44,500 bases of DNA from a virus. The stretch is from positions 1 through 44,500 of the IMG/VR virus record IMGVR_UViG_3300025405_000260. The stretch is one strand, 5' to 3'. How positions within the stretch are numbered: the stretch's first letter is position 1; the number at the start of each line of letters is the position of its first letter. A program made the position numbers and the translations under genes. Shown here piece after piece: positions 26,703 to 44,500 of the stretch. Below the pieces are notes generated by a model. The model searched no databases, was not told the DNA's origin, and worked only from the letters and a program-made list of their open reading frames with translations.

Positions 26703-27129
26703 TGAACTAGAATGGCAATCAGAAGGACTCTGTAAAGACCTACCTACAGGAATTTTCTTTCCTGGTCAGGGTGAAACTGTAAATAAGATGGCTATAGATG
26801 CCTGTGAAGAATGTCCTGTAAAGGAACAATGCCTGGATCATGCATTAAGACATGAGGGGTATGGTTACTGGGGTGGTACTACCGAAAAGGAAAGACAGAG
26901 AATTCGTAAGGTAAGAAAGATTCGTTTAAAGAATCCTTCTACAGGTATGGGGAATATTGGGGTTGGTTTTAACCCAAACGGTAGACCTAGAATAGAGAAA
27001 CCAGAATGTGGAACAATGCAAGGCTATAATTACGAACAACGTAATGGACTACCCTTTTGTGATGCCTGTAAAGCAGCAAGAGCAGCCTATAACAAGAAGA
27101 GATATCAAGAGCTAAAGGCGGCAATGTGA
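26695..27129 (+). CDS. WhiB-like Fe-S regulator fused to a second Cys motif
   Basis: A 144-residue protein overlapping the ligase end. Residues 13-46 carry C13-X23-C37-X2-C40-X5-C46, the WhiB [4Fe-4S] pattern, followed by GYWGGTTEKER (residues 57-67), the conserved WhiB turn before a basic region. Residues 105-125 add CGTMQGY and a CDAC pair, a motif I recall from other actinophage proteins that may bind zinc. WhiB proteins act with RNA polymerase sigma factors and respond to redox state, so this product could redirect host transcription. The fusion is the odd part. Confidence 0.85.
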   Translation: MINELEWQSEGLCKDLPTGIFFPGQGETVNKMAIDACEECPVKEQCLDHALRHEGYGYWGGTTEKERQRIRKVRKIRLKNPSTGMGNIGVGFNPNGRPRIEKPECGTMQGYNYEQRNGLPFCDACKAARAAYNKKRYQELKAAM

Positions 27130-27818
27130 TTAAAGTTGGATTAGTAATTCCTGTCCTCAATAATTTTGATGGAGCAATGGACCTTATCTACTCTGCAAAA
27201 ACTAGAGAAAATGAATTAAAGATTTATGTTCAACCTCAGTATAGATATCAGGTGCCATTATCACAAGCCTGGAATAATGGTATAAAGCAGGCAATCACAG
27301 ATGGTTGTGACTATATTATTGTTGCCAACGATGATACCTTATTTGCTCCCCACTCAATTGACGAGTGGGTAGATAGGATGTCTCAAGAACCAGAAAATGT
27401 AGTATTAACTGCCCCTCTAGATGTAAAGAAGACTTTTGACGATCCTTTTGAGATCGTTTTTTCAGACTCCGATACAAGTTATGAATTTGAGGAAAATGAA
27501 CTCTTCTCTATGTTTATGGTCCGTAAGGATTTTTGGGAACGTTGTGGATGGTTTGATGAGAACTTTGACCCATGTTGGTGGGAAGACAATGATATGCACT
27601 ATAGGATTACCCTGTTAGGCTTTAGTATCACAAAGTACACTATTCCCTATATACATTTAGGTAGTATTTCTACGAAAAAGATGAATCTTCCTATCAATAG
27701 TCTAAAGAGTCAAGAATATTACAGAAAAAAATGGGGAAGTAACAACAGAACCTTGATTGAGGCATATAAAACACCCTATAATAGAAAGGATTTAACCCCT
27801 AAAGATTGGATTAAGTAA
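27126..27818 (+). CDS. Glycosyltransferase, GT-A (GT2-like)
   Basis: A 230-residue protein with a GTG start inside the previous stop. The N-terminus VGLVIPVLNNFDGAM, the nucleotide-binding IIVANDDTLF with the NDD metal site near residue 66, and a C-terminal FDPCWWEDNDMHYRITLLG motif mark a GT-A fold enzyme of the rhamnosyl/GT2 type. The acceptor cannot be read from sequence. It opens a run of four glycosyltransferases that share overlapping stop/start codons, so they likely work on one glycan. Confidence 0.75.
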   Translation: MIKVGLVIPVLNNFDGAMDLIYSAKTRENELKIYVQPQYRYQVPLSQAWNNGIKQAITDGCDYIIVANDDTLFAPHSIDEWVDRMSQEPENVVLTAPLDVKKTFDDPFEIVFSDSDTSYEFEENELFSMFMVRKDFWERCGWFDENFDPCWWEDNDMHYRITLLGFSITKYTIPYIHLGSISTKKMNLPINSLKSQEYYRKKWGSNNRTLIEAYKTPYNRKDLTPKDWIK

Positions 27819-28408
27819 TGCCTAAATTCTCTATCATTGGTGTGGATTATGAAAAACATACTCCACGAGATATGATGGTAGAGGGATTACAGAGTATTGC
27901 AAATCAAACTTTTAAAGATTTTGAACTATTAATCTGTCATGATGGGCCCAAAGAGGTCCCCTATGAAGAAGAGGTAGATTTTAAGTCTATGGGGTTAAAC
28001 CCAATCTTTCTAAATACACCAGAAAGAGAAAATAAATGGGGCCATCCTTCTAGACGGTTGGCAATGCAGAATGCTACCGGTGAGTATTTTATCAATTTTA
28101 ATCTAGATAACCTACTTACACCCAACTGTTTAGAAAATCTTAATCTAGCCATTACCCATACTAAAGGTTATGTGTTAATCTTTAATATACTTATGCGTGG
28201 TAATCACACAGGTAATGATATTTTAAGAGGTGTTCCACCAGTACATACCAATATTGATGCTATGCAGATGGTTGCTAGTAGAGAGATTTGGGAGTCAATT
28301 AGTTGGTGGTATAGAGATGAACCATCCTCTGATGGAATGATTATTGAAGAAATTTGCAAATTGCACCCCTGGCTTGAAGTACCCTTAGTGTTAGGAGAAC
28401 ACAGATAA
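27818..28408 (+). CDS. Glycosyltransferase family 2-like protein
   Basis: A 196-residue protein. It begins with a GT2 start strand (FSIIGVDYEKHTPRDMMVEG) and has SIANQTFKDFELLICHDG, the typical acceptor/donor segment of GT2 enzymes. The metal motif is FNLDN near residue 92 in place of DxD, so metal binding may be altered. The C-terminus carries a DEPSSDGMIIEEICK segment. It is short for a complete GT2 enzyme and could be a reduced form with a different partner. It is coupled to both neighbours by TAATG. Confidence 0.68.
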   Translation: MPKFSIIGVDYEKHTPRDMMVEGLQSIANQTFKDFELLICHDGPKEVPYEEEVDFKSMGLNPIFLNTPERENKWGHPSRRLAMQNATGEYFINFNLDNLLTPNCLENLNLAITHTKGYVLIFNILMRGNHTGNDILRGVPPVHTNIDAMQMVASREIWESISWWYRDEPSSDGMIIEEICKLHPWLEVPLVLGEHR

Positions 28409-29697
28409 TGTCCAAAACAAAAGTTTTAGCTTACGGTGACTATTGTTGCTCAACTGGTTTTGCTACCGTTATGGGTAACATCCTTAGAGAGCTTAATGCT
28501 ACTGGTAACTATGAAATTGACGTCGTTGGTATTAACTACGATGGTGGTCCATACGATACAGAAAAGTGGCCAGGTAGAGTATGGCCTGCTATTAGTGCTT
28601 TAAGACAGCAGGGTCCATATGGTGACCTCCATGGTAGACAGGTATTCCTGGATAGATTAGGTCAGGGTGACTACGATGTTGTATTTATCGTACAGGATAC
28701 CTTTATTATGTTGCCAATTACTCCACAAATCTTGGAAGTACAGCGTAATAAGCCAAAGAGCTTTAGTACGATTTATTACTATCCGTTTGACTGTGCCCCT
28801 AGAGAGGAATGGGTACGTCATTGTGTTGCCTCTTATGACTTTCCAGTTGCCTATACAGAATATGCAAAGAATGAAAGTCGTAAGTATCTTGGACCATTAG
28901 CAGATAAGCATTCAGTTATCTATCATGGAACAAATACAACCGATTTTTACCCACTACCAAATGAAGATCGTAAGCAAATTCGTCAATCCTTGTTTGGACC
29001 TTACGCAGATAGATTTATTATCAGTAACATCAATCGTAATCAGGGACGTAAGGACGTTACCAGAAGCTTTATGATTCTTAAGGAACTTCGACGTCGTGGA
29101 TACGAGGAACCATTCCTTTACATGCACATGCAGGAAACAGACTTTGGTGGGAGTATCCTAGCACAAGCAACCAACTTTGGATTGGTTCCAGACAAGGACT
29201 TTACGATCCCAAACCCACAACAGTTTAGTGCACACATGGGCTTTCCTGTTGAAGTGGTAAATCAAATCTATAACATTAGTGATGTTTATCTTTCCACCTG
29301 CTTGGGTGAAGGTTGGGGTTTGAGTATTACAGAAGCAATGGCCTGTAAGACTCCTATTGTTGTTCCAAATAATACATCACTTCCTGAAATTACCAACAAT
29401 AGTGAACGTGGTTGGTTAATTCCTTCTGGTGAAACTCCTACGCACTGGATTATTAAGGACAACGATAACGATCGTGTTCGTCCTCTTATGAACGTTGAAA
29501 AAGCTGCAGATGCAATCGTCGAAATTATGGAAAATAAGGACGGAATTGTTGAAAAGAAGGTAGACCTGGCCTATGAATGGGCTAGCCAACTTACCTGGAA
29601 GTCTGTAGTTGAGGATTGGAAGTCAATCTTTAACAAGGCCACCAATAAGTCTAGAAGTGCTAACCTTCTCAAGAATGGGTCCGTACAATGGAAGTAG
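28408..29697 (+). CDS. Glycosyltransferase family 4 (group 1)
   Basis: A 429-residue GT-B enzyme. The C-terminal donor domain has the family 4 motif STCLGEGWGLSITEAMACKT with the E-X7-E pair near residues 300-308, followed by PIVVPNNTSLPEIT. The N-terminal half has a Rossmann-like start (KVLAYGDYCCSTGFATVMGN) and an acceptor domain. A helix-rich C-terminal tail follows. Retaining GT4 enzymes use nucleotide sugars to extend glycans. It is the largest of the four consecutive glycosyltransferases and overlaps the next gene by 10 bases. Confidence 0.85.
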   Translation: MSKTKVLAYGDYCCSTGFATVMGNILRELNATGNYEIDVVGINYDGGPYDTEKWPGRVWPAISALRQQGPYGDLHGRQVFLDRLGQGDYDVVFIVQDTFIMLPITPQILEVQRNKPKSFSTIYYYPFDCAPREEWVRHCVASYDFPVAYTEYAKNESRKYLGPLADKHSVIYHGTNTTDFYPLPNEDRKQIRQSLFGPYADRFIISNINRNQGRKDVTRSFMILKELRRRGYEEPFLYMHMQETDFGGSILAQATNFGLVPDKDFTIPNPQQFSAHMGFPVEVVNQIYNISDVYLSTCLGEGWGLSITEAMACKTPIVVPNNTSLPEITNNSERGWLIPSGETPTHWIIKDNDNDRVRPLMNVEKAADAIVEIMENKDGIVEKKVDLAYEWASQLTWKSVVEDWKSIFNKATNKSRSANLLKNGSVQWK

Positions 29698-30440
29698 TTG
29701 ATATTTTCATGTTTAACAATGAGATGGAGTTATTAGATCTCAGAGTTAAGATTCTTGAAGATGTTGTAGATAAGTTTATCATCAAGGAAGCAGAATTTAC
29801 CTTCCAGGGTAATCCAAAGGAGGCTCTTGGTAAGACCTACAATCACCCCAAGGTTTTTGTTGAAACTGTAGAGTACGATCCCAACTGGACTATTTGGCAA
29901 CGAGATAAATACCATAGGGCTAGTAGAGTAGATCTTAAGAAGTTTGATGTAAGTGATGATGCTTTAATTTTAATGAGTGATCTAGATGAAATTCCTAATC
30001 CACTGGCTGTTGCCTGGTTGAGAGATAATTTTGATGGAGAAACCGTTTACTCATTTGAACAACTAATGTTTCAGGGTTACCTCAACGTTAGAAATCTTAG
30101 TGAACGATGGGCTGGCACTAGAGCTTGTCATGTAGATATCTATAATACATCTGATGCTGAAACCTTAAAACAGGATAACGATAACGTTACCTTGATTGAG
30201 AATGCAGGTTGGCATTGGAGCTTTCTTGGTGGAGTAGACGAGGTCACCAGAAAGATTAAGGACTATGCTCACAATGAGTTTAATACCCCTCTAGTTCTTA
30301 ACGACGTCGAAAATAGATTACTTAATGGTCTAGATGTTTTGGGTAGAAATTGTATTCTTCAAACGATTGAGATTGATGATAGTTACCCTAGTTATATCCT
30401 AGAGAATCTAGATAGTTTAAGCCATTTAATTAGGCATTGA
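29688..30440 (+). CDS. Glycosyltransferase family 17-like protein
   Basis: A 250-residue protein. The opening (VDIFMFNNEMELLDLRVKI, then VVDKFIIKEAEFTFQGNPK) and MSDLDEIPNP with its DxD metal site, followed by MFQGYLNVRN and a WHWSFLGG motif, match GT17 (beta-1,4-GlcNAc-transferase-like) enzymes, which also occur in phages and giant viruses. It closes the glycosyltransferase run. Its stop codon TGA lies inside the -35 box of the next promoter. Confidence 0.82.
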   Translation: MEVVDIFMFNNEMELLDLRVKILEDVVDKFIIKEAEFTFQGNPKEALGKTYNHPKVFVETVEYDPNWTIWQRDKYHRASRVDLKKFDVSDDALILMSDLDEIPNPLAVAWLRDNFDGETVYSFEQLMFQGYLNVRNLSERWAGTRACHVDIYNTSDAETLKQDNDNVTLIENAGWHWSFLGGVDEVTRKIKDYAHNEFNTPLVLNDVENRLLNGLDVLGRNCILQTIEIDDSYPSYILENLDSLSHLIRH

Positions 30441-30480: not shown

Positions 30481-30615
30481 TTAGTAGAAGTAAAAAATAG
30501 AGTTTGTCCTGAGGGTAGAGTAATTCTCTGGATTAGCAAAAAAAGTAAGAAAAGAAAAGTGTACTACTTTCATGATGATGGTACACCCTGTAAGAAAATG
30601 GATATAGATGAGTAA
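30472..30615 (+). CDS. Small basic protein, 47 residues, leaderless
   Basis: ATG lies at the expected transcription start. The product has a hydrophobic/basic opening (MGLLVEVKNRVCPEGRVIL), a Lys/Arg-rich middle (SKKSKKRKVYYF) and an acidic end. It resembles small single-domain beta proteins but no family is recognised. Its last 8 bases overlap the start of the UV endonuclease gene, so ribosomes on the leaderless message could re-initiate there. Confidence 0.58.
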   Translation: MGLLVEVKNRVCPEGRVILWISKKSKKRKVYYFHDDGTPCKKMDIDE

Positions 30616-31639
30616 GCAACGTGTAGGTTTTTGTTGTAAGTATATCGATAGGCCTGATCAAATTTTAGGCATTGGTGCCAAAGACGATGCAAAAGAATGG
30701 ACTACTAGAAGTTTATCCCTAAACTGGATGAATAAGAATAGAGGCCATAAAGCTGACTTTAAGCTTATTGACGTAATGGAGCATAACCTTCGTAGTGTTA
30801 AGTTGCTATTAGAAAAAGTAGCAGCTAGAGACGAAATCTACCATATGGTACGTCTTGGTAGTGATATTCTTCCTCTTTACTCTATTGAGTATTGGAAGAG
30901 TGTTTATCGACGTCATGGCATTATTGAGAAAATTGAAAACGGTCTTGGTGAGATTGGTGATTTTGCTCGAGCTAACGATATTCGTTTGAGCTTTCATCCT
31001 GGTCAGTTTGTTGTATTGGCCAGTAATCGAGCTGACGTTAGAGCAAATAGTATTGACGAAATTGAGTACCATGCTGACCTTGCCTACTGGATGGGTTATG
31101 GCGATCAATTCCAAGACCTTAAGATCAATATCCATATCTCTGGCCCATTGGGTAGTTATGCTGTTCAGCAAGCTTTGCCCCATCTATCCCCTGTAGCCAA
31201 AAATTGTTTGACTATTGAGAATGACGAGATGTCCTGGGGTATTGACGAAAGTCTTAAGCTTGAACGTGATCTTGCTTTAGTTGTTGATGTCCATCACCAT
31301 TGGGTTAAGACCGGTGAGTATATTGAGCCAGATGACCCTAGAATGCAACGTGTTATTGATTCCTGGCGAGGCGTTCGTCCAGTTATTCATTATTCTCAAC
31401 CTAGAGAGGACGTTTTAGTTGGTCATGACCCTAGCGTACGTCCTGATTTCCTTGATTTGATGTCAAAGGGCTTTAATAAGCCAAAGTTGAGAGCTCATAG
31501 TGACTTCTACTGGAACGAAGCCTGTAATAATTGGGCTTGGTCTTTCCTAGATAAGTTTGATATTCAGACTGAGAGTAAGGCCAAGAATCTTTCCCAAGAG
31601 GCTTTTGTAACCTCCCAGTTAACTAAAATAAGTCATTGA
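30608..31639 (+). CDS. uvsE: UV damage endonuclease, UvsE/UVDE family
   Basis: A 343-residue TIM-barrel protein. The opening VGFCCKYIDRP, the family motif LSFHPGQFVVLASNRADV, EIEYHADLAYWMG, INIHISGPLG, TIENDEM and the VDVHHHW metal site follow UvdE order closely. These enzymes cut next to pyrimidine dimers and other lesions, starting an alternative excision repair path. It is coupled to the small leaderless gene. In a phage it may repair DNA after UV exposure, consistent with sunlit water, though that is inference. Confidence 0.87.
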   Translation: MSKQRVGFCCKYIDRPDQILGIGAKDDAKEWTTRSLSLNWMNKNRGHKADFKLIDVMEHNLRSVKLLLEKVAARDEIYHMVRLGSDILPLYSIEYWKSVYRRHGIIEKIENGLGEIGDFARANDIRLSFHPGQFVVLASNRADVRANSIDEIEYHADLAYWMGYGDQFQDLKINIHISGPLGSYAVQQALPHLSPVAKNCLTIENDEMSWGIDESLKLERDLALVVDVHHHWVKTGEYIEPDDPRMQRVIDSWRGVRPVIHYSQPREDVLVGHDPSVRPDFLDLMSKGFNKPKLRAHSDFYWNEACNNWAWSFLDKFDIQTESKAKNLSQEAFVTSQLTKISH

Positions 31640-35426: not shown

Positions 35427-35455
35427 TTGATTTTCATTAGAATCTTTATTATAAT
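35427..35455 (+). promoter_or_regulatory. Strong promoter, TTGATT-N17-TATAAT
   Basis: The -35 at 35427-35432 and a consensus -10 at 35450-35455 are 17 bases apart. It lies 8 bases after the stop of the previous gene. Transcription should begin near 35462, giving a 5' leader of about 190 bases before panD. Confidence 0.8.
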
Positions 35456-35469
35456 TAAAGTATAAATAG

Positions 35470-35514
35470 TCAAAAGTTAAGGTTTTTACCTCCATTTCGA
35501 CCTTAACTGTTTGA
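35470..35514 (+). promoter_or_regulatory. Leader hairpin 1 (possible attenuator/terminator)
   Basis: TCAAA-AGTTAAGG pairs with CCTTAACT-(G bulge)-TTTGA, 13 base pairs, with an 18-base loop, followed by TTATTTTA. It could work as a weak terminator or attenuator soon after the promoter. GC content is low, so termination is uncertain. Confidence 0.55.
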
Positions 35515-35522
35515 TTATTTTA

Positions 35523-35563
35523 GTCCTGGGGATTTTCTTTCCTTCCTTCCGTTGCCCCAGGAC
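35523..35563 (+). promoter_or_regulatory. Leader hairpin 2 with pyrimidine-rich loop
   Basis: GTCCTGGGG pairs perfectly with CCCCAGGAC around a 23-base loop rich in C and T. The loop segment TTTCCTT (35538-35544) is complementary to AAGGAAA in the panD ribosome site (35647-35653), so a loop-SD contact is possible. Confidence 0.58.
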
Positions 35564-35568
35564 GAATC

Positions 35569-35636
35569 GTAGCTGTAGTATAAAAAAGTATTACATCCCT
35601 AGTTGGGAGATGTAGGTGCAAGTCCTACCAGCTACA
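35569..35636 (+). ncRNA. tRNA-like structure in the panD leader
   Basis: GTAGCTG/CAGCTAC is a perfect 7-bp acceptor-type stem, and GTAGG-TGCAAGT-CCTAC a perfect T arm with a 7-base loop. The expected D arm reduces to three pairs and lacks the GG of a normal D loop. The anticodon arm (TCC/GGA closing a CTAGTTG loop) is short and lacks a purine after the anticodon. It is either a degenerate tRNA or a tRNA mimic, not a reliable functional tRNA. Confidence 0.5.
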
Positions 35637-35655
35637 CTGTTGTAGAAAGGAAAAT

Positions 35656-36003
35656 ATGAGACAGTATGTAGCATCCAAGCTCCATGGTTTGAGAGTAACT
35701 CACAAAAGTCTAGATTACCATGGTTCAGTAACCATTCCAAAGAATTACTGCCTAGAATTAGATATTCAGGAGTATGAATGGATTTATGTTGTAAATGCCA
35801 GTAATGGTTTACGTTGGGAAACTTACGTACTTTACGGCCCAGATCATGAATTCCACCTCAATGGTGGTGGAGCTCGTTTGGGAGAAATTGGGGATAAGTG
35901 CATCCTCTTTACTCGTAAGGTTGGAGATGTTTACGAACCAGCCAAGGTTCTAGAGATCGACGAAAAGAACGAAAAGATTAAAGCTTTTACGTATGAGCAA
36001 TAA
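35656..36003 (+). CDS. panD: Aspartate 1-decarboxylase (pyruvoyl enzyme)
   Basis: A 115-residue protein aligning with bacterial PanD through most of its length: SKLHGLRVTHKSLDYHGSV with K8, H10, Y21 and the self-cleavage pair G23-S24 (which yields the pyruvoyl group), VNASNGLRWETYVLYG with R53 and Y57, NGGGARLGEIGD, and VLEIDEKNEKI. The enzyme turns L-aspartate into beta-alanine and CO2. It is slightly shorter than the 126-residue E. coli enzyme. It is the first gene after a strong promoter and structured leader and overlaps the amidoligase gene by 11 bases, suggesting that beta-alanine is a building block for that pathway and not only a CoA precursor. Confidence 0.88.
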   Translation: MRQYVASKLHGLRVTHKSLDYHGSVTIPKNYCLELDIQEYEWIYVVNASNGLRWETYVLYGPDHEFHLNGGGARLGEIGDKCILFTRKVGDVYEPAKVLEIDEKNEKIKAFTYEQ

Positions 36004-36832
36004 TTTTACCTACGGTTGCGAATTAGAGTGGTCTGATGTAGATAAGAGGACCCCTATTCCTGCTGAACTTGGTGCCTGGGATTGGGAGGATACAACCATC
36101 GTTAATTCAGATGGTCATGCCAACGACCCCAAGGGAAAGAACCATTTCTTTGGTGGGGAAATTAATACTAAACCTACAGAGACTATTAGTGAGCAAATTT
36201 TAAACATAGGTCTCCTTAAATCTCTACTTAACCCTAATAGTTTTTATAGGGCCAATTTGCATATTCATGTAGGAATGGAAGGCCTTACAGAGGACCTAGA
36301 GATTCAAAAGAAGTTATTGCGTTATATTAAGGATAACGATGAGTTTATCTATAACGAAATGCTCTTTAGGCCTGAACCCACCAAGGAAATGTATCCTGAC
36401 CCTGATGTATTAAAGGCTGCTAAAAAGTTCCATAGACAGCAGGTTATCTGGGCCAAGAAGCCTATGGCCCCAGATCGTGTAGAAAAGTGTTTGGCTGCTA
36501 ATACAGTTAGAGAATTTTATGAAGGTCATTTCCTCTATTCTGAAAAGCACCAGAGAATCTTTTACCACTTGAGTTCCCCTAGAGCCGGAATTAACCTTAG
36601 ATCATTACATAAAAATGGTACAGTTGAGTTTAGATGCTGGCCTGGGACAACTGATGTAGATCAGATTAAGGATGCAATGGAATTTTGTAGAGAATTTATG
36701 GAGGCTGCCTTAAATAACCCTTCAAGAACCTCTAGAGATATCTATGAATCTAGAACCTGGAACTTTCCTCAATGGCAGGAGTTTATTTACGACCTAGAGG
36801 TAGGTTACCACAAAACGAAAGTAGAACACTAG
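35993..36832 (+). CDS. Amidoligase-family protein, copy 1
   Basis: A 279-residue protein with the amidoligase (COOH-NH2 ligase) pattern: TYGCELEW with acidic E10/E12, FGGEINTKP at residues 53-61, NLHIHVG at 88-94, and TVEFRCWPGTTDVDQIKDAM in the C-terminal half. In this glutamine synthetase-like fold the acidic residues and histidines bind metal-ATP, and the enzyme joins a carboxylate to an amine. Targets in phages are unknown. The gene overlaps panD and is followed after one base by a paralogue with the same layout. Confidence 0.8.
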   Translation: MSNNFTYGCELEWSDVDKRTPIPAELGAWDWEDTTIVNSDGHANDPKGKNHFFGGEINTKPTETISEQILNIGLLKSLLNPNSFYRANLHIHVGMEGLTEDLEIQKKLLRYIKDNDEFIYNEMLFRPEPTKEMYPDPDVLKAAKKFHRQQVIWAKKPMAPDRVEKCLAANTVREFYEGHFLYSEKHQRIFYHLSSPRAGINLRSLHKNGTVEFRCWPGTTDVDQIKDAMEFCREFMEAALNNPSRTSRDIYESRTWNFPQWQEFIYDLEVGYHKTKVEH

Positions 36833-36833
36833 T

Positions 36834-37697
36834 ATGGACCGTAGAGAAAAATTAGGTGAGTTCACCTATGGATTAGAGATTGAGTGGAGTGATTGTGATT
36901 CAAGAACTCCTCTTCCAGAAGATTGTGGCAAATGGAGCCCAAAGGAATGGACGATTGTTAATTCAGATGGTAGAGCAAATGACCCCACTCATATTAGGAA
37001 TACTCAGGGTGGAGAAATCAATACAGTTCCATCCGATACGATTGAACGTCAAGTAGAGATTACTAGAACTCTTCGTGATCTTTTAAACCCTACTGCATTG
37101 TATCGTGGTAGTCTTCAGGTGCATATTGGAGTTCCTGGTTTAGTAGATGACCTTGATGCCTTAAAGGACCTCTTTCGTTATACGATTGATAACCAACCCT
37201 TTATCTTCTTTGAGATCTTTCCTAGAGTAAAGCTTACTAGAGGTATGTTTTCTAACCCAGAGGATTGGAAGGTAGCCAGTAGATTTGATAGACAAAAGAA
37301 TCTATGGACCAAGCGTGGTGTTCCTGCTAGTAGAATTGATAGTATTCTTAATTCAGAGACTACCGAAGATTTTTATGAGAATCACTTCCAGTATAACGAG
37401 AAGTTAGGACGTAGACTTTACCACCTTGGTGTATGGAGAGCTGGAGTAAATGTACGTAGTGCTTTTATGCATGGTACAGTTGAATTCCGTTGTTTCCCCA
37501 ATACTACAGATCCAGATCAGGTACGTGATTGCTTTGAGTTTGCCAGACAGATTGTTGAAGCTGGTCTCTATAACCCTTCTAGAACTGCCAAGGATATTTA
37601 CGAGAGTAGAGAATGGAATTTTCCAGATTGGCCTCCATTTGATGTAGAATTGGAAAAGGGCTTCCTTGCTACTGCCAAGAGGCCTGACGGTATCTAA
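36834..37697 (+). CDS. Amidoligase-family protein, copy 2
   Basis: A 287-residue paralogue of the previous gene. It has FTYGLEIEWSD with E15/E17, GGEINTVP, a changed SLQVHIG where copy 1 has NLHIHVG (the first His is Gln), and the GTVEFRCFPNTTDPDQVRD segment. The shared order of motifs and similar C-termini (RTSRDIYESRTWNFP versus RTAKDIYESREWNFP) show a local duplication with later divergence. It likely handles a related but different substrate, or forms a heteromer with copy 1. It is coupled to copy 3 by TAATG. Confidence 0.78.
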   Translation: MDRREKLGEFTYGLEIEWSDCDSRTPLPEDCGKWSPKEWTIVNSDGRANDPTHIRNTQGGEINTVPSDTIERQVEITRTLRDLLNPTALYRGSLQVHIGVPGLVDDLDALKDLFRYTIDNQPFIFFEIFPRVKLTRGMFSNPEDWKVASRFDRQKNLWTKRGVPASRIDSILNSETTEDFYENHFQYNEKLGRRLYHLGVWRAGVNVRSAFMHGTVEFRCFPNTTDPDQVRDCFEFARQIVEAGLYNPSRTAKDIYESREWNFPDWPPFDVELEKGFLATAKRPDGI

Positions 37698-38578
37698 TGA
37701 CCACCTATGGACTAGAAATTGAGATGGGAGATATCAATCTCCTTAAGGCTGCTAATCTGGTATTTACAAAGCAAGGTCTTGATCCCAGTACATGGAAGGA
37801 CCGTGGAGTCCATCTTAGTGAAAAGGTTCGTAAATACGATATCTGGAATATTAGCTCAGATAAGACTATTACCAATCACAATGGTACTAGATGCCGTAGA
37901 GTAGTAATGCTTCCAGATGGTAGTATTGTTGGTGGTAAAGAAAGCAATCGTGAATACTGGCAGGGTGCAGAATTAATCTCTCCTGTTTTAAAGTCCGAAG
38001 AAATGGACAAGGACTTTCCTGTACTACAAGGCTACCTAGATGTACTCTATGCTAATGGTGCCAGTATTGACCCAGCCTTATTCCATGACCTACATGTTCA
38101 TGTAGACTTTGGTGAACAAAGCCCAGAACAGTGGAAGAGATTAATGGAGTTTACGGCCTGGATTAGAGAAGCTCAGTATCCTCTTATCAAGGTACATGAA
38201 GCTGCTACTCCAGAACACTCTCCAAAGAAGTATCGTTATAGTGATGAATTTGTAGCTGATCTTCTTAAGACAAAAGATTACGAAGAGTATAGTTACGAAT
38301 ATCGACGTCACCATAAGTTAGCAAATGGGGAAAGACAGAGTTTCCAACTATATCAGTATCGTAGATTAGCCTGTCCAGGAGCAGTAATGGACCCAACCAA
38401 GAGTTATAATACTCTTGAATGGAGAATGTGGCCTGGTCTATCTAATGTGGACTTGATTAAACGTATTGCACAATTTAGTATTAATTGTACCGAATCTTTT
38501 CCATCACAGGAATTTGTAGAAGAATGGTCTAAAGAGACCGTTGAATTAATAAAGGAAGAAAATGCCAGAAAAGCCTAA
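37697..38578 (+). CDS. Amidoligase-family protein, copy 3 (divergent)
   Basis: A 293-residue protein with TTYGLEIEMGD at the start, AELISPVL in place of the GGEIN motif, DLHVHVDFGEQSPEQW, and NTLEWRMWPGLSNVDLIKR, so the acidic and His motifs remain. An additional region (residues 45-95) carries KTITNHNGTRCRRV. It is much more diverged than copies 1 and 2 and is probably an older paralogue that forms a different amide bond. It overlaps the methyltransferase gene by 17 bases. Confidence 0.75.
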   Translation: MTTYGLEIEMGDINLLKAANLVFTKQGLDPSTWKDRGVHLSEKVRKYDIWNISSDKTITNHNGTRCRRVVMLPDGSIVGGKESNREYWQGAELISPVLKSEEMDKDFPVLQGYLDVLYANGASIDPALFHDLHVHVDFGEQSPEQWKRLMEFTAWIREAQYPLIKVHEAATPEHSPKKYRYSDEFVADLLKTKDYEEYSYEYRRHHKLANGERQSFQLYQYRRLACPGAVMDPTKSYNTLEWRMWPGLSNVDLIKRIAQFSINCTESFPSQEFVEEWSKETVELIKEENARKA

Positions 38579-39227
38579 GTCTAGAAGAGCTATTAAGACG
38601 TTTGATATTAATACGTTATCAGATGAGCAGCGTAAAGAGTATTGGAATAATATGTCTGAAAAGCAGGTATTTGGACTCTACCGTCCAAAGACTATTCGCT
38701 TTGTAAGAGAAAAGACCAAGGAAATTACGGACAAGTACTATGCTTTGGACCCCAATGTTACGGTTCATGAGCCTGGTTGTGCATATGCTATGGCTTTGAG
38801 AAGTATTAACCCAGAGATTAAGTATCTGGGTACGGACCTGGCTGAAAATATGATTACTGGTTCTAGAGAGTTATATGCAGACCTTCCAAATGCCACCTTT
38901 GAGGTAGAGAGTATTGAATCTGCCTATGAGAAGGGAATTAAGGCAGATGTTAGTCTTATCTTGTGTATGATGGACTCTATTGCTCATGATTATTCATTGG
39001 AGTTGTTGGAGAAGGTAATGGAGATGTCTAATAAGGCTGTTTTGTTTATCTCTCAACGACATGAGTTTAATCGTAGTTTGCATGATCCCAACTGGAACTG
39101 GACTAGAAACTTTAATAGCCATGACCCTCAGGAAATTGTTGAAATGGCCAATAAGCTTGGTTGGGATTGTGAATTAGATGTACGAGAAAAGTATTCTAAC
39201 TTTGCAGCTACCTTGACTAGGAGATAG
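38562..39227 (+). CDS. Class I SAM-dependent methyltransferase
   Basis: A 221-residue protein. Motif I is VHEPGCAYAMALR (residues 68-80), followed by KYLGTDLAENM with D92 as the SAM-ribose acidic residue, then a glycine-poor middle with LILCMMDSIAHDY and VLFISQRHEF. No DNA-methylase catalytic motif (such as NPPY or PC) is visible, so it probably methylates a small molecule or protein. It sits between the amidoligases and a TGT-like enzyme in one overlapping run. Confidence 0.75.
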   Translation: MPEKPKSRRAIKTFDINTLSDEQRKEYWNNMSEKQVFGLYRPKTIRFVREKTKEITDKYYALDPNVTVHEPGCAYAMALRSINPEIKYLGTDLAENMITGSRELYADLPNATFEVESIESAYEKGIKADVSLILCMMDSIAHDYSLELLEKVMEMSNKAVLFISQRHEFNRSLHDPNWNWTRNFNSHDPQEIVEMANKLGWDCELDVREKYSNFAATLTRR

Positions 39228-39228
39228 A

Positions 39229-40095
39229 GTGGATTTATATATTGGAAAACCCCATAGATATGTTGGGCCCAATCAGTTAGGTTATGCATTATCCCATGAA
39301 ATGAATAACGAAGCAACTATTGAGAGATATTCTAAGACCAATCGTTTAATTCTAGATAATGGAGCAGATGAATTAGGAGAAGGTGAGGGTGGCATGAGAT
39401 TGGCCTACCTTGCTGGTAGATTGAATCCTGAATTTGTTATCCTTCCAGATGTCCTTCATAAGGATAAAGAAACTCGTAAGCGTGGAATTAAGTTCTATAC
39501 CTCTATGAGAGATGCCGGATATGACGGTAAGTTTATTTCTGTTATTCAGGCTAAGACTCTAGATAAAGGTTTGGAAAGCTATAAGTTTTGGGCCAAGAGT
39601 GGTATGGTAGACCGTATTGGTGTTACCTATGATACAAAGATTGTAGGACATGAGGACTATGCCTTAGAGTTTTCTTGGGGAAAACGTATTAGCTTTCTCT
39701 ATAAGTTGGCTCCACTATACGAAAAGTATGAAATAGGTATTCATATGTTGGGTACTCTAGATGTACATGAAATGTATTTACTTAACCATTACGATGAGTT
39801 TAAGAAGTATGGAATCTATCAAATGATTGAAAGTCATGATACTACTGCTCCATGGGCTTGTCCTACAAAATTTTATGCTGGTACGAATAGAATCCATTTT
39901 GATAGAGAAAAGAATTGGGAACGTTTAAAGTTTTCTAGGAAGTTTGAACCATCTAAGTTAGGGATAGCCTACTGGAATGTTGTTTGTTATCTTGCTGCCT
40001 GTAAAATTCCTCTAGAGAGATGGAAAGAATATATTCCTGAGAATTTTGTAAATCATTACTGGGAAGATTTAGAGTTTAGACATTACTATGAATAA
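39229..40095 (+). CDS. TGT/DpdA-like base-exchange enzyme (TIM barrel)
   Basis: A 288-residue protein with a GTG start behind AGGAGATA. Its motifs recall tRNA-guanine transglycosylases and phage DpdA proteins: LILDNGADELGEG (D43 in the place of the DSGG motif), FVILPDV (D74), KFISVIQAK, DRIGVTYDT, then GIHMLGTLD followed by MIESHDTTAPW, where D204 takes the place of the nucleophile Asp of TGT. The zinc-binding Cys cluster of classical TGT is not seen. Phage DpdA proteins put 7-deazaguanines into DNA. The family call is by motif order only. Confidence 0.55.
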   Translation: MDLYIGKPHRYVGPNQLGYALSHEMNNEATIERYSKTNRLILDNGADELGEGEGGMRLAYLAGRLNPEFVILPDVLHKDKETRKRGIKFYTSMRDAGYDGKFISVIQAKTLDKGLESYKFWAKSGMVDRIGVTYDTKIVGHEDYALEFSWGKRISFLYKLAPLYEKYEIGIHMLGTLDVHEMYLLNHYDEFKKYGIYQMIESHDTTAPWACPTKFYAGTNRIHFDREKNWERLKFSRKFEPSKLGIAYWNVVCYLAACKIPLERWKEYIPENFVNHYWEDLEFRHYYE

Positions 40096-41008
40096 GCTTT
40101 TAATTATCGACGGTCATAACGTAGGTCTAAGAGCTTATTTTGGATTGATCAAGCAGGGGTTAAGGACTCGGGATGGTATTGGGACCTGGGGACTCTATGG
40201 TGCTATTAATTCGTTATCCTTCTATGTAAAGGAATATCAGCCTACCCACCTTTTAGTGGCTTTTGATAAAGGTCGTAGTGCTGTTAGAACAGAAATTTTT
40301 TCTGAGTATAAGGCCAATAGAACAACCAGTAGTCCAGATAACTTTCAGGAATCTAGACAACAGATTAATCTCTTTGAAGAATTTTGTCAGCTAGCTAATG
40401 TTAAGACAGTTAGAGTCCAAAATATTGAAGCAGATGATATTATTGCTCAAACTGTACACGCTTATGCAGATAAGTTTGACCAAGTAGTTATTGTATCAGC
40501 TGATCATGACATTAAGCAGCTTATTCAAGATAACGTAATTGTAGTAAAACCCTCACTAGGTCAATCTAGAGATGTAAAACAGGAAATTCATACCTATAAA
40601 AGTATTCGTGAAGAATATGATATGGAGCCAAAAGACTTAAGACAGATTTGGGCTTTAACAGGAGACAAGGGAGATAATATCCCTGGAGTTCCTGGTATTG
40701 GTGAAAAAACTGCCTTAAAGCTTCTCAGGAAATATGGCGGTTTTAAAGAACTGCTTGATAGTGATGAGCCAAAGATTGAAGGCTACCAGGAAGTAATTAA
40801 GAAGGCCTATAGACTTGTTGATCTATTTATAGAAATGGTTGAACTTGATATTCCTACATTAGAGGAATTAAAATTTAAACCAGAGACCTCTAAATTGGGG
40901 TTAGATAAGTTTCTTATCGAGTATGAGTTAAACAGTATTAGATCTAGGTATCAAGATGGACTTCTGTGGAAGGAAGCTCCAAGTATAGGAAGGAAGTTGG
41001 GTGAATAA
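40088..41008 (+). CDS. 5'-3' exonuclease / FEN-type nuclease
   Basis: A 306-residue protein of the Pol I N-domain/T5 exonuclease family. IIDGHNVGLRAYFG opens the PIN-like fold, VAFDKGRSAVRTEIFSEYK is the arch region, IEADDIIAQT and VSADHDIKQL hold metal-binding acids, and TGDKGDNIPGVPGIGEKTA is the helix-hairpin-helix motif. It removes 5' flaps and RNA primers. It overlaps the genes on both sides by 8 bases. The presence of a replication nuclease within an otherwise metabolic run may reflect early expression rather than pathway membership. Confidence 0.88.
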   Translation: MNKLLIIDGHNVGLRAYFGLIKQGLRTRDGIGTWGLYGAINSLSFYVKEYQPTHLLVAFDKGRSAVRTEIFSEYKANRTTSSPDNFQESRQQINLFEEFCQLANVKTVRVQNIEADDIIAQTVHAYADKFDQVVIVSADHDIKQLIQDNVIVVKPSLGQSRDVKQEIHTYKSIREEYDMEPKDLRQIWALTGDKGDNIPGVPGIGEKTALKLLRKYGGFKELLDSDEPKIEGYQEVIKKAYRLVDLFIEMVELDIPTLEELKFKPETSKLGLDKFLIEYELNSIRSRYQDGLLWKEAPSIGRKLGE

Positions 41009-42089
41009 GAACCAGGTAGACAAGGTTGTTAGAGATGTTATAGAGTTTATTAACTCTGGACCTATTGATGATAATGATTTTGGAAGGGTAGCTTTAAGTC
41101 TCTACGATTTGCATCGTGAATATAACCCTACCTATAAGAAATATGAGATTGGTGAGTTAAAGGATTGGAGAGAGATTCCTTTAATGCCAATCAGTGAGTT
41201 TAAGAACTCTGATGTAGGTTTAAAGTTTGAAACTCAAATGCCCTTTCCTGGAGTAGAGTTCCATTCTAGTGGTACTACCAAGGGTGATAAGAGTAAGCAC
41301 CGTATGTATGATACAGAGGCTTATAGGGCTTCTATTGCAAATGGTTTTAAGGTTTCTGTTGAACCTGCATTGTATCCTAGATACCGTGTTGTATTGTTAA
41401 CTCCTGAATTACCCAATAGTAGTCTTTACTATATGATGAGCTATATTTCTGAGCTCCATGACCGTAGAGGAACTAGAGAGGTTTTTAGTCAGTTAACCAA
41501 TATAGAAGCTGTTAGAAGCTTAATGGAGGATGACCTATCCTGGGAGGTAGAAACCCCTGTTTTGCTTTTTGGAACTAGTTTGGCCTTTTATGACTTGATG
41601 GAATCTATGGAGAAAGCTGAGGTAAAGCCATTTAAGCTCCCAGAGGGTTCTATGATGATTGAAACTGGTGGTTGGAAGGGTAGAGATATTAAGCTTTCTC
41701 CTAGAGAATTAACCACCAAGGTTTCAGTTAATCTTGGAATTGATTTTGATAACTGTATTAGAGAATATTCTATGAGTGAAATGTCTAGTCAGTTATGGTC
41801 TTGGGGTAATGACTATACCGTAGGGTATGTTTGGCCAGATTGGTTAAATGTACGATTGGTAGACCCTCTTACTCAAACTGAAGTAAAGGAAGGCGAAAGT
41901 GGAATTATTGCTTTTGTGGACCTTGCCAATGTATGGAGTTGTCCATTCATCTTGACCGAGGATATGGGACATCTATATTATGTAGATAAAGGTTTTGAGA
42001 AGTTAGTATTGGAAGGACGGGCAGTAAATGCTCCAGAGAAGGGATGCAGCTTAACTTATGCCCAGAACACGGAAAAATTGGATAGTTAA
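41001..42089 (+). CDS. LuxE-like acyl-protein synthetase
   Basis: A 362-residue adenylating enzyme starting at GTG. It has FHSSGTTKGDKSKHR (residues 87-99) as the ATP/phosphate loop, MIETGGWKGRD at 217-227, and EYSMSEMSSQLW (253-264), the order found in LuxE/F390 synthetase-like proteins. The C-terminal GCSL motif (C349) is placed where LuxE carries its acyl-accepting Cys. In luminescent bacteria LuxE activates fatty acids and passes the acyl group to LuxC. Here the next gene is LuxC-like, so the pair likely reduces some carboxylic acid; the acid is unknown. Confidence 0.78.
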   Translation: MNKNQVDKVVRDVIEFINSGPIDDNDFGRVALSLYDLHREYNPTYKKYEIGELKDWREIPLMPISEFKNSDVGLKFETQMPFPGVEFHSSGTTKGDKSKHRMYDTEAYRASIANGFKVSVEPALYPRYRVVLLTPELPNSSLYYMMSYISELHDRRGTREVFSQLTNIEAVRSLMEDDLSWEVETPVLLFGTSLAFYDLMESMEKAEVKPFKLPEGSMMIETGGWKGRDIKLSPRELTTKVSVNLGIDFDNCIREYSMSEMSSQLWSWGNDYTVGYVWPDWLNVRLVDPLTQTEVKEGESGIIAFVDLANVWSCPFILTEDMGHLYYVDKGFEKLVLEGRAVNAPEKGCSLTYAQNTEKLDS

Positions 42090-43101
42090 TCCCACAGGAG
42101 ACTTCGTTAAGGAGTTAGCCTTATCAGGTAGGTTCCTAGAATCTGATTATAGGATTGCTATTAAGAATGGGGATATTCCAGATGACTTTGATGAGAATTT
42201 AGAGAAGTCAGATAGGAAGTTTGTAATTATTGGGGCTAGAAGTGTTCCAATGGCTACTGCTAAAAGTGTATTCCTTTGCTTAAGATTGGCTGGACCTGAG
42301 AGTGTAGTAATTAAAACTGCTACTGAAGATGAAGGTCTGTTAGTACAGAATGTTTTAGATAACTGGACTCCTCATGGAGTTGAAACTAAGATCTTTAGTA
42401 TTGGTTCCGATAAGTTAAGGAACTATCCAGAGTGGGCCAAATACCTAGAGGAAGCTACTGATATTGTAGTCTTTGGTGGTAGAGAAACTGTAGACTCCTT
42501 TATTGAGTTAGAAACTAGGAAAAGAAACGTCTATATCCATGGGCCAAAGTTTAGCTTTAGTATTATTAAGGCTAAAGATTTAAACATGGCACACCTAAAT
42601 GACATATGTGATGACTTTGGTCTCTATTATGGTGAAGGCTGTTTAAGTCCTAAGTTTTGTATTATCGTAGGTAAAGTAGACCCAAAGTGGTATCATGAAG
42701 CTAGTTTAATTATGCAGGCTGAGCATGGAGATAATATCATGGAATTTCGTGGTAAGCTCCCTATGGCCAAGAAGTCTGAACTAGTACAGGAAATTGTAAC
42801 TGCTAATGTTGTTGGTAAATATGTTAGAGTAGAGACTCTGGATGATAAAAAGAAGCTGTTTAGTCCACTATACGGTGATGTTAGATTTATTAACGTTAAC
42901 ACCTTAGATGATTTAGTTCCATTCCTTGAGGATTGGAAGTACGATATTAGTACTGTAGCCTGTTTAGAGGAAGAAGACGATATCGTAGATTTAATGGACG
43001 AGTTCAATATTACTAGAGTTTGTGCTTTTGGGGAGATGCAGTTTCCTGAATTTGATGAGCCTTTTGATATTGTCGATGATTTTGATATATACTGTCAATA
43101 G
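42058..43101 (+). CDS. LuxC-like acyl reductase
   Basis: A 347-residue protein starting inside the end of the LuxE-like gene (32-base overlap). GEGCLSPKFCIIVG at residues 192-205 gives the catalytic Cys (C195) in the aldehyde-dehydrogenase-like context of LuxC. Other parts (KFVIIGARSVPMATAKSVF, the VVFGGRETVDSF segment, and VYIHGPKFSFSII) fit its NADPH-binding and catalytic core. LuxC reduces an enzyme- or CoA-bound acyl group to an aldehyde. The protein is shorter than LuxC (about 480 residues) at the N-terminus, so it may be a minimal form. Confidence 0.72.
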   Translation: MPRTRKNWIVNPTGDFVKELALSGRFLESDYRIAIKNGDIPDDFDENLEKSDRKFVIIGARSVPMATAKSVFLCLRLAGPESVVIKTATEDEGLLVQNVLDNWTPHGVETKIFSIGSDKLRNYPEWAKYLEEATDIVVFGGRETVDSFIELETRKRNVYIHGPKFSFSIIKAKDLNMAHLNDICDDFGLYYGEGCLSPKFCIIVGKVDPKWYHEASLIMQAEHGDNIMEFRGKLPMAKKSELVQEIVTANVVGKYVRVETLDDKKKLFSPLYGDVRFINVNTLDDLVPFLEDWKYDISTVACLEEEDDIVDLMDEFNITRVCAFGEMQFPEFDEPFDIVDDFDIYCQ

Positions 43102-43112
43102 GAGTAATAATA

Positions 43113-43271
43113 ATGCAGGTATGGTTGGTAACAACAAAAGCAAAAGGTAAAGTTGTAGGTATCTATTCTGCCTACGAGTATGTTCAAAAGAATATTAAGG
43201 ACCCAGAGAACTTGGTAATTACGAAGTTTCAGGTAAATGCTACCTTAAAGAAGGTAAAGGAAGGGGACTAA
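43113..43271 (+). CDS. Small hypothetical protein, 52 residues
   Basis: ATG follows GGAG by 8 bases and the gene ends by a shared base with the next ATG. The product is Val/Lys-rich with strands (QVWLVTTKAKGKVVGIYSA) and a helix, probably soluble. It lies between the reductase and aminotransferase genes, so it may be a small accessory to them. No family is recognised. Confidence 0.6.
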   Translation: MQVWLVTTKAKGKVVGIYSAYEYVQKNIKDPENLVITKFQVNATLKKVKEGD

Positions 43272-43438
43272 TGCAGTATGGTGATATTGTAGTAGATAAG
43301 ATAGCTTTAGGTAAGATTGTTGGTAAAACAACAGATGGAAAATGGATCATCGAATGGGTTCTTGAAGGAAATCTTGAAGCTCTTTCAGAAGAGCAACTAT
43401 ACCTGGTAGAGGAAAATAATGAGTCTAGCAAGAACTAA
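43271..43438 (+). CDS. Small hypothetical protein, 55 residues
   Basis: It starts at ATG overlapping the previous stop (TAATG) and its end overlaps the aminotransferase start at 43419. The sequence reads like a small beta-barrel (GDIVVDKIALGKIVGKTTDG, then KWIIEWVLEGNLEALSEE). Such short SH3-like proteins are frequent in phages. The tight coupling on both sides argues for real translation. Confidence 0.6.
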   Translation: MQYGDIVVDKIALGKIVGKTTDGKWIIEWVLEGNLEALSEEQLYLVEENNESSKN

Positions 43439-44500
43439 TCCCTGGCCTTATGATATTACGATTAAGGAAGCTAAGGGAAGTTATTTCTTTACAGATGAGT
43501 ATGGTCCAATGTTTGACTTCGCCTCTGGTATTGCAGTAAATAACCTAGGTCATCGTAACAAGAAGATCTTGGCTGCTACTGAACGTGTAATGGATAAGTA
43601 TGCCCATATTAACGTTTATGGTGAGTTCAATATTAAAGAACAGTTGAAGTATGCTGACCTTTTAGCAGATGCTTTTAACTTTCCTGCTGGTAAAGAGGAA
43701 GAAGGCCTTTGGACCCAAAACAAGAAGACTTGGTTTTGTAATGCAGGAACCGAGGCAAACGAATTAGCAATGAAATTAGCAACCCTGAGTACAGGGAGAG
43801 AAGGATTTATAGCACTTAAAGATGGATTCCACGGACGTTCTCTTGGTAGTCTTAGTCTCACTTATAAGCCAACTTATCGTGAGCCTTTCGCTTATATGGT
43901 CAACCCGGACCTTACGAAATGGGTACAAATTGGAGAAGAAATCCCAGAAGAGTATGGAAGTAGAGCCGCTCTCTTTATGGAGTTGGTACAAGGAGAAGCC
44001 GGAGTAGTTCCGGTTGATCCCAACTGGGCTAAGTATGTTAGTGACTGGTGTGAAGACCATGGTGTATTATTAGTTATTGATGAAGTCCAAACTGGTTTTG
44101 GAAGAACAGGAAGACATTTTGCTTTGGATCTTGATGATTATAGTGGCGTTAATCCTGCCATTGTTACCCTGGGTAAGGCAGCTGGTGGAGGATACCCCCT
44201 TGGAGCTGTGGTTACCAGCAAAGAGATTATGGATTACATTTCTGAGCGTAACCCTTTTACTCATCTTAGTACTTTTGGTGGTAATCCAATAAGTGTAACT
44301 GCTGGTAGAGTAATGTTTGAAGAGACCAAGAAAAAGGAATTGTTGACAAATGTTCTCAATTCTGAAGTATTGGCCAGAAGTGTATTCCAGAACTTTGAAC
44401 ATGCCTACTTGAGAGGCAAGGGTTTGATGTTGGGTCTAGTATTAGATGATTCAATTGATATTGACTCTGTAGTCCAGAATATTTGGAAGAAGAGTATTTT
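43419..44500 (+). CDS. Class III PLP aminotransferase, 3' truncated by window end
   Basis: At least 360 residues are visible from ATG 43419. Family marks are WFCNAGTEANELAMKL (cofactor phosphate site), FHGRSLGSLSLT, LLVIDEVQTGFGRTG (Asp binding the PLP ring nitrogen), VTLGKAAGGGYPLGAV with the Schiff-base lysine, and STFGGNPISVTAG. The group includes acetylornithine, GABA and beta-alanine aminotransferases, which swap amino groups between amines and aldehydes or keto acids. With the LuxE- and LuxC-like genes upstream, it could convert the aldehyde they make into an amine. The end is outside the window. Confidence 0.88.
   Translation, partial: MSLARTNPWPYDITIKEAKGSYFFTDEYGPMFDFASGIAVNNLGHRNKKILAATERVMDKYAHINVYGEFNIKEQLKYADLLADAFNFPAGKEEEGLWTQNKKTWFCNAGTEANELAMKLATLSTGREGFIALKDGFHGRSLGSLSLTYKPTYREPFAYMVNPDLTKWVQIGEEIPEEYGSRAALFMELVQGEAGVVPVDPNWAKYVSDWCEDHGVLLVIDEVQTGFGRTGRHFALDLDDYSGVNPAIVTLGKAAGGGYPLGAVVTSKEIMDYISERNPFTHLSTFGGNPISVTAGRVMFEETKKKELLTNVLNSEVLARSVFQNFEHAYLRGKGLMLGLVLDDSIDIDSVVQNIWKKSI

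Follow-up and report, generated by a model that had tools for sequence, protein, structure and literature searches.

A phage operon joining LuxE-, LuxC- and aminotransferase-type genes to a predicted 7-deazaguanine DNA-modification pathway

The operon and its enzyme families

The DNA analysed here (hereafter, the window) is the entire IMG/VR record IMGVR_UViG_3300025405_000260, 44,500 bases of viral sequence. Our subject is the operon at its 3' end, in which a DpdA-type DNA guanine transglycosylase is encoded together with LuxE-like, LuxC-like and class III aminotransferase proteins, an aspartate decarboxylase, three amidoligases and a methyltransferase. All of the operon's genes lie on the plus strand; neighbours are spaced by -32 to +11 bases, nearly all of them overlapping, and the end of the record falls within the aminotransferase gene. 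The initial annotation, made from the letters alone, had named this gene set from panD to the aminotransferase; every named gene was found in its place, and the family assignments were upheld. The features are given below, with the core genes at the head, followed by the optional layer and the remaining features.

39229..40095, + strand: DpdA-type DNA guanine transglycosylase (core), assigned by predicted structure, hhalign and gene context
41001..42089, + strand: LuxE-type adenylating acyl transferase (core), carboxylate activation; PF04443, 6e-10
42058..43101, + strand: LuxC-type acyl-thioester reductase (core), thioester to aldehyde; PF05893, 2e-10
43419..44500 (cut by the record end), + strand: class III aminotransferase (core), aldehyde to primary amine; PF00202, 2e-65
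35656..36003, + strand: PanD, aspartate 1-decarboxylase (optional module); PF02261, 2e-23
35993..36832, + strand: amidoligase 1 (AL1); PF12224, 1e-6, above the cutoff
36834..37697, + strand: amidoligase 2 (AL2); PF12224, 7e-4, just under the cutoff; 48% identical to AL1
37697..38578, + strand: amidoligase 3 (AL3); PHROG amidoligase, 0.001
38562..39227, + strand: Rossmann-type S-adenosylmethionine-dependent methyltransferase; weak PF13649/PF08242, 0.006
40088..41008, + strand: FEN / 5'-3' exonuclease; PF02739, 4e-39; flanked by DpdA and LuxE in every lineage
43113..43271, + strand: small protein of 52 residues, an open reading frame seen in the window only, with no counterpart found in relatives
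43271..43438, + strand: small protein of 55 residues, kept in lineages G001/G002 and G007/G009 at 44-52% identity
35427..35455, + strand: promoter-like site TTGATT-17-TATAAT, matching the consensus at 10/12 positions, in the 230-base gap preceding the operon

The DpdA-type protein has no Pfam match, and its sequence profile found no match in the PDB. An AlphaFold model (AF2, with a diverged sequence added) reached a pLDDT of 72 and a pTM of 0.74. When this model was compared with solved structures by VIA-align, the best match was 7ui4, the solved DNA preQ0 insertase DpdA (Z 14.8; rmsd 2.8 over 171 residues), and the remaining rows of the top 50 were all tRNA-guanine transglycosylase (TGT) structures, at Z 12.0-12.5. 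The TGT/DpdA-like enzyme proposed from the sequence is thus borne out. This model replaced an earlier one (pLDDT 65), for which Foldseek had returned generic TIM barrels and DpdA was at the top but tied after VIA-align. Since Foldseek, given the better model, mixes TGTs with transaldolases, we base the DpdA assignment on VIA-align and hhalign together with the gene context. By hhalign, the window's DpdA profile matched the DpdA of Flavobacterium phage immuto with 98% probability, and the immuto gene sits among QueD, QueE, FolE, QueF and formyltransferase genes; the same profile did not match the DpdA of 9g, a Vibrio DpdA2-like protein or UvdE. A homologue in Bacillus phage BSP7 (BSP7_057; L153, 5821-6609), annotated as hypothetical, lies in a QueC-QueD-QueE-FolE cluster and is likely to be a DpdA of the window's subfamily. 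The window's protein has the fold of these enzymes and is predicted to insert a base into DNA.

Profile comparison of LuxE with the PDB matched 7xc6_E (7e-16), the LuxE chain in the solved structure of the LuxC-LuxE fatty acid reductase, and the adenylation-type motif SSGTT.xDKS is conserved. In LuxC, Cys195 is invariant and was aligned with a cysteine of the 7xc6 LuxC in a weak profile match (0.02). The closest PDB entries to the aminotransferase are acetylornithine aminotransferases (7e-50). The FEN nuclease is probably a replication gene.

In the optional layer, PanD matched PanD structures in the PDB (4e-11) and its pyruvoyl self-cleavage site, Gly23-Ser24, is invariant; its predicted reaction, the formation of beta-alanine from aspartate, is well supported. 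Residues E10, E12, E56, N58, H92, R197, N201, R203, E212 and R214 of AL1 are invariant in eight relatives, including one from a Vibrio phage, and AL2 is fused to AL1 in the relative G001. AL3, which has no Pfam match, is homologous to the AL4 of the relative L004 (BLASTP 2e-24, hhalign 1e-20), and that protein itself matches PF12224 at 4e-19.

7-Deazaguanine genes and modular variation in related lineages

Relatives were found by amidoligase, LuxC, DpdA and LuxE searches, and the records were grouped into six lineages: the window, G001/G002, G003, G007/G009, G006/G008 and L069. Past the aminotransferase, the relatives carry QueD, QueE, FolE and dCTP deaminase genes, and the order DpdA-FEN-LuxE-LuxC-aminotransferase-QueD-QueE-FolE is common to five related IMG/VR lineages, including G011/L069. 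QueD and FolE in these relatives match their Pfam families strongly (PTPS, 3e-35; GTP_cyclohydroI, 1e-70), with the motif CxxxHGH of QueD kept; QueE was identified by homology. The QueE of the phage group (L004 12945-13700; L018) has a variant radical-SAM motif, CX3CX4C, whereas the usual spacing, CX3CX2C, is found in the QueE of the diverged L069.

FolE, QueD and QueE together convert GTP to 7-carboxy-7-deazaguanine (CDG). Because QueD-QueE-FolE continue past the cut in five related lineages, we read the operon as the beginning of a phage locus for 7-deazaguanine modification of DNA, and this class of base is well supported by the gene content. A hypermodified base of this kind had been one of two options offered by the initial annotation, and the three genes in the relatives support it strongly. 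Searching for folE, queD, queE and queC showed the first three adjoining the gene set in relatives and did not find queC. Indeed, neither the window record nor any other LuxE/LuxC record of the group gave a Pfam-model match to QueC or QueF; these searches do match in most control genomes, and the unrelated record G010 carries QueC.

The gene set is modular. Three lineages, namely the window, G001/G002 and G003, hold the full complement (PanD, at least two AL1/AL2-type amidoligases, AL3, the methyltransferase and the core), and G003 has an additional, fourth amidoligase; PanD is accordingly present in three of the six lineages. G007/G009 combines the core with a single amidoligase, nearest to AL2. 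In G006/G008 (G006 is record IMGVR_UViG_3300025467_000009) and L069 the core stands alone, comprising DpdA, FEN, LuxE, LuxC, the aminotransferase, QueD, QueE and FolE. A Pfam amidoligase search of the whole records G004, G005, G006 and G008 found none. The core proteins of L069 are only 34-55% identical, yet they form the same core, which argues that this set is old and has been kept together; likewise, recurrence of the order down to this level of identity argues against a chance assembly. Independent occurrence of these genes in related phages, which would have spoken against a common function, was not what we found: the core always co-occurs, and PanD, AL3 and the methyltransferase are present or absent as one unit. 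On a tree rooted on L069, the distribution of these three genes is patchy and the gene trees conflict, such that gain and loss are indistinguishable.

Gene company of the amidoligases and surroundings of the operon

A scan with an AL1/AL2 profile returned 79 loci; pooling these with the loci already collected and clustering at 60% identity gave 26 clusters; the search patterns derive from the AL1/AL2 family and the flanks extend to at most 10 kb, and the cluster counts describe these loci only. A gene for ADDT, the amino acid:DNA transferase that is part of thymine hypermodification, lies within about 10 kb in 19 clusters, 7-deazaguanine genes accompany four, and three have neither. At 14 loci the ADDT assignment was compared with Pfam, and 13 of these pass the curated cutoff. 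The notion that these amidoligases are specific to deazaguanine clusters was rejected, as most clusters have ADDT. Because 23 of the 26 clusters adjoin ADDT or 7-deazaguanine genes, AL1/AL2-type amidoligases appear to belong to DNA-base hypermodification. The same subfamily, mostly at 30-44% identity, occurs in the thymidine hypermodification cassettes (ADDT, 5-hydroxymethyldeoxyuridine DNA kinase and amidoligase; e.g. phage Simon). Those cassettes act on thymine; an ADDT profile search near the deazaguanine-type loci L002, L003, L018, L069, L073 and L074, a set that did not include the window, found no ADDT.

In Vibrio phage 2.275.O, an AL1 homologue (27% identity) is flanked by a DpdA-like gene on one side and QueF on the other, and these three adjoin YhhQ, QueC, a GATase-like gene and FolE. 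By its gene content, this phage would make 7-aminomethyl-7-deazaguanine (preQ1) in the usual way, with an amidoligase placed next to that pathway. Since the amidoligase adjoins the usual preQ1 genes, this arrangement favours amidoligation of the preQ1 amine, although the substrate may instead be a carboxylate linked to the base.

Two other cassettes came to light in these comparisons. At L076, L078, L082, L084 and other loci, genes for an amidoligase, a low-molecular-weight phosphatase-like protein, a GATase-like protein and ADDT recur together, apparently as a module that hypermodifies thymine and includes the formation of an amide. In Rhodococcus/Gordonia phage Jace (gp85-88; L070 7347-10112), PanD stands beside a ParB-like protein, a protein that matches both GNAT acetyltransferases and ATPases, and a CoA-transferase III-like protein, perhaps as another DNA-modification cassette that uses beta-alanine.

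The phage in the window, a large and uncultured one, has a contractile tail and is kin to actinobacterial myophages of 135-165 kb. Its sheath protein shares 25-28% identity with the sheaths of Rhodococcus phage E3, of Gordonia phages and of the Mycobacterium phages Myrna and Phabba; the window also has a WhiB-like gene. From these relatives and this gene, we take the record to be about one-third of the phage genome and the host to be probably actinobacterial. The GC content of the window is about 39%.

The initial annotation had placed the operon under one promoter. The promoter-like site listed above does exist, but such sites are no commoner in the window than in shuffled sequence (18 found vs. 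28 expected); a single promoter for the operon is at most plausible. Between this site and panD (35463-35562) are two strong hairpins with pyrimidine-rich loops, CCTCCATTT and TTCCTTCCTTC; the same loops recur in the relative L004 (2440-2575) on different stems, and the hairpins are possibly an RNA leader element. Just 5' of panD, at 35569-35636, is a tRNA-like sequence (40.7 bits with the Rfam tRNA model) with an unusual anticodon arm; ARAGORN did not call it, and no tRNA was called at the matching locus in L004.

Further upstream is a UvdE-type UV endonuclease gene (30608-31639); in several relatives, such a gene immediately precedes the modification genes. Lineage G006 gave no UvdE match; a small protein in that interval resembles, as judged by eye, a pyrimidine-dimer glycosylase. 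Four consecutive glycosyltransferase-like genes (two GT2-like, one GT1/GT4-like and one GT17) occupy 27126-30440 and possibly serve virion or DNA glycosylation.

A predicted route from CDG to a decorated base, and its alternatives

From the enzyme families, the operon, the co-occurrence, the modular variation and the lack of QueC and QueF matches set out above, we infer substrates, a step order, a final structure and a protective role, as follows. FolE, QueD and QueE, by homology in the relatives, would make CDG from GTP. LuxE would activate the CDG carboxylate with ATP, by way of an acyl-adenylate and an acyl-enzyme; LuxC, drawing on NADPH, would reduce the activated CDG to an aldehyde, 7-formyl-7-deazaguanine; and the class III aminotransferase would convert this aldehyde to preQ1, bypassing the nitrile route of QueC and QueF. 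DpdA would exchange guanine in the phage DNA for the modified base, which may be finished beforehand as the free base or, if CDG is inserted first, be processed on the DNA. In the window phage and two other lineages, the amine, or any CDG carboxylate still left, would then be linked by the amidoligases to building blocks that carry a carboxylate, most simply beta-alanine from PanD. The methyltransferase would cap the product. Such a bulky base would hide the DNA from host nucleases. We put the probability of this complete scheme (CDG to preQ1 by LuxE, LuxC and the aminotransferase, insertion by DpdA, and optional amide and methyl decoration) at about two in three.

Two features of the lineages shape this scheme. 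In the core-only lineages, nothing else was found that adds a carboxylate, which makes CDG the simplest substrate for LuxE and LuxC. Moreover, because two lineages keep LuxE-LuxC-aminotransferase without PanD, amidoligase or methyltransferase, the amide layer appears to be optional and later. The amide- and amine-bearing group that had been proposed from the sequence therefore stands in part: amide formation is retained as an optional later layer, but the substrate of LuxE, LuxC and the aminotransferase, which these two lineages have alongside DpdA and the genes for CDG synthesis, is most likely CDG itself. We lean toward the view that this is a second, QueC/QueF-independent phage route to preQ1, to which some members add peptide-like (beta-alanyl, methylated) hypermodifications with up to four amidoligases.

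Several points weigh against this scheme. QueD, QueE and FolE are not within the window record itself. The contigs are fragmentary (the largest is 133 kb, and related isolates have 135-165 kb), and QueC and QueF could be in unsampled parts of the genomes, or preQ0 could come from the host. The substrates of known LuxC and LuxE enzymes are fatty acids rather than heteroaromatic acids, and the match of the phage LuxC to the solved LuxC is weak (0.02). PanD also occurs in phages whose listed neighbouring genes include none for modification. Finally, the amidoligases may take a base-linked carboxylate as substrate in ADDT phages and a base-linked amine in preQ1 phages.

The alternative nearest to the chemistry first proposed for this operon would have CDG amidated at the outset, with beta-alanine or another amino acid, and the distal carboxylate then converted to an amine by LuxE, LuxC and the aminotransferase. 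The product would be a CDG aminopropyl amide, and the core enzymes would never act on CDG itself. PanD, the amidoligases and LuxE/LuxC/aminotransferase do share one operon in three lineages, and acetylornithine-type aminotransferases use aliphatic amino-aldehydes; against this stand the two lineages, one of them very diverged, that have LuxE/LuxC/aminotransferase, CDG synthesis and DpdA with no PanD or amidoligase found. We consider this order of events unlikely. Mass alone cannot separate the two leading structures, since beta-alanyl-dPreQ1 and dCDG 3-aminopropylamide are isomers (C15H22N6O5; calculated [M+H]+ 367.17). Another thought is that PanD is an unrelated metabolic gene, feeding host pantothenate and CoA, in a mixed island that also holds a complete deazaguanine core. 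PanD does occur alone in other phages, e.g. Achromobacter phage 2-1; here, however, it overlaps AL1 by 11 bases and comes and goes with AL3 and the methyltransferase, and we give the idea little credence.

A comparably small probability attaches to a 7-deazaguanine destined for host tRNA, whether as a queuosine-like base or to boost host queuosine, rather than for phage DNA. The transglycosylase does have the TGT fold, and TGTs score close after DpdA. Yet DpdA is the best structural match by more than 2 Z units over all TGTs, the relatives in sequence are phage DpdA proteins in DNA-modification clusters (immuto, BSP7), and the linked amidoligases keep company with DNA-base enzymes. The other option of the initial annotation, a modified wall or virion component, has lost ground. 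On this view, the target of the amidoligases, PanD and LuxE/LuxC/aminotransferase would be a wall polymer, a capsule-like glycan or a part of the virion, and the deazaguanine genes would be mere neighbours. The glycosyltransferase-like genes upstream would suit it, and peptidoglycan is the proposed target of a Pseudomonas phage module that includes an amidoligase (PMC11945000). However, LuxE/LuxC/aminotransferase always adjoin DpdA and QueD/QueE/FolE, also in lineages free of amidoligases, and the amidoligase relatives are found with ADDT or deazaguanine genes in 23/26 clusters; the gene company of the window-type amidoligases points to DNA, not to peptidoglycan. We regard this option as the least probable of those weighed here.

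The preferred scheme, preQ1 made from CDG by reduction and transamination, shares a DpdA-type enzyme, FolE, QueD, QueE and the predicted replacement of guanine in phage DNA with the known phage 7-deazaguanine systems, which comprise DpdA and FolE/QueD/QueE/QueC with or without QueF, ArcS or Gat-QueC (PMC6884629). It differs from them in having LuxE, LuxC and a class III aminotransferase where QueC and QueF stand, and in its extra layer of amidoligases, PanD and methyltransferase. Hutinet et al. (2019) predicted that phage Bipper, which is without only QueC, is able to carry CDG, and preQ1 is already known in phage DNA (PMC6884629). The window-type locus would share with the dPreQ1 phages the presence of preQ1 in DNA, as predicted product or precursor, and its further decoration on the amine. 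These phages, such as Streptococcus phage Dp-1 and Halovirus HVTV-1, use QueF and obtain preQ1 from preQ0 by nitrile reduction, in contrast to the carboxylate reduction and transamination predicted here. Derivatives such as methyl-dPreQ1, formyl-dPreQ1 and dCDG were reportedly described by Cui et al. in 2023 (Nucleic Acids Research, NAR); to our knowledge, amide decoration is not among the known decorations of dPreQ1 phages, and we know of no described way to preQ1 other than the nitrile route through QueC and then QueF. Like the LuxC-LuxE fatty acid reductase (7xc6), the locus encodes an adenylating, acyl-transferring LuxE and a thioester-reducing LuxC side by side; unlike it, the pair is joined to deazaguanine genes and an aminotransferase, and the predicted substrate is a nucleobase acid. 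Judged by context, no luxD and no other lux or lipid genes were seen among the LuxE/LuxC neighbours, and deazaguanine genes were there in all lineages. The possible attachment of an amino acid, through an amide bond, to a carboxylate carried by a DNA base has a parallel in CmoA/CmoX/CmoY of Synechococcus phage S-B43 (PMC12783734); that system works on cytosine with an asparagine-synthetase-type ligase, whereas the window-type locus would work on deazaguanine with a PF12224 amidoligase.

Megablast of the region against isolated phages found no match, LuxC and LuxE (the LuxE of L069 included) had none in 50,697 phage records, and the LuxC profile found no relative in bacterial and archaeal genomes at the sensitivity used. 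The open-access papers searched, the 2023 NAR paper not among them, gave no account of this composition, of amidoligases with 7-deazaguanine, of preQ1 with an aminotransferase or of phage LuxE/LuxC. The insertion enzyme and the CDG genes are of a known kind; the steps from CDG to the final base are not.

If the scheme is correct, reaching preQ1 by reduction and transamination would be new to nucleobase biochemistry and would offer aldehyde and amine handles useful for DNA labelling, and the repertoire of DNA bases would be extended to amide-decorated deazaguanines. A recurrent family of phage amidoligases would gain a function tied to both thymine and deazaguanine modification, and phages would have a new way to disguise their genomes. 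With minimal, intermediate and full versions of the gene set occurring in nature, each step of the pathway can be tested directly.

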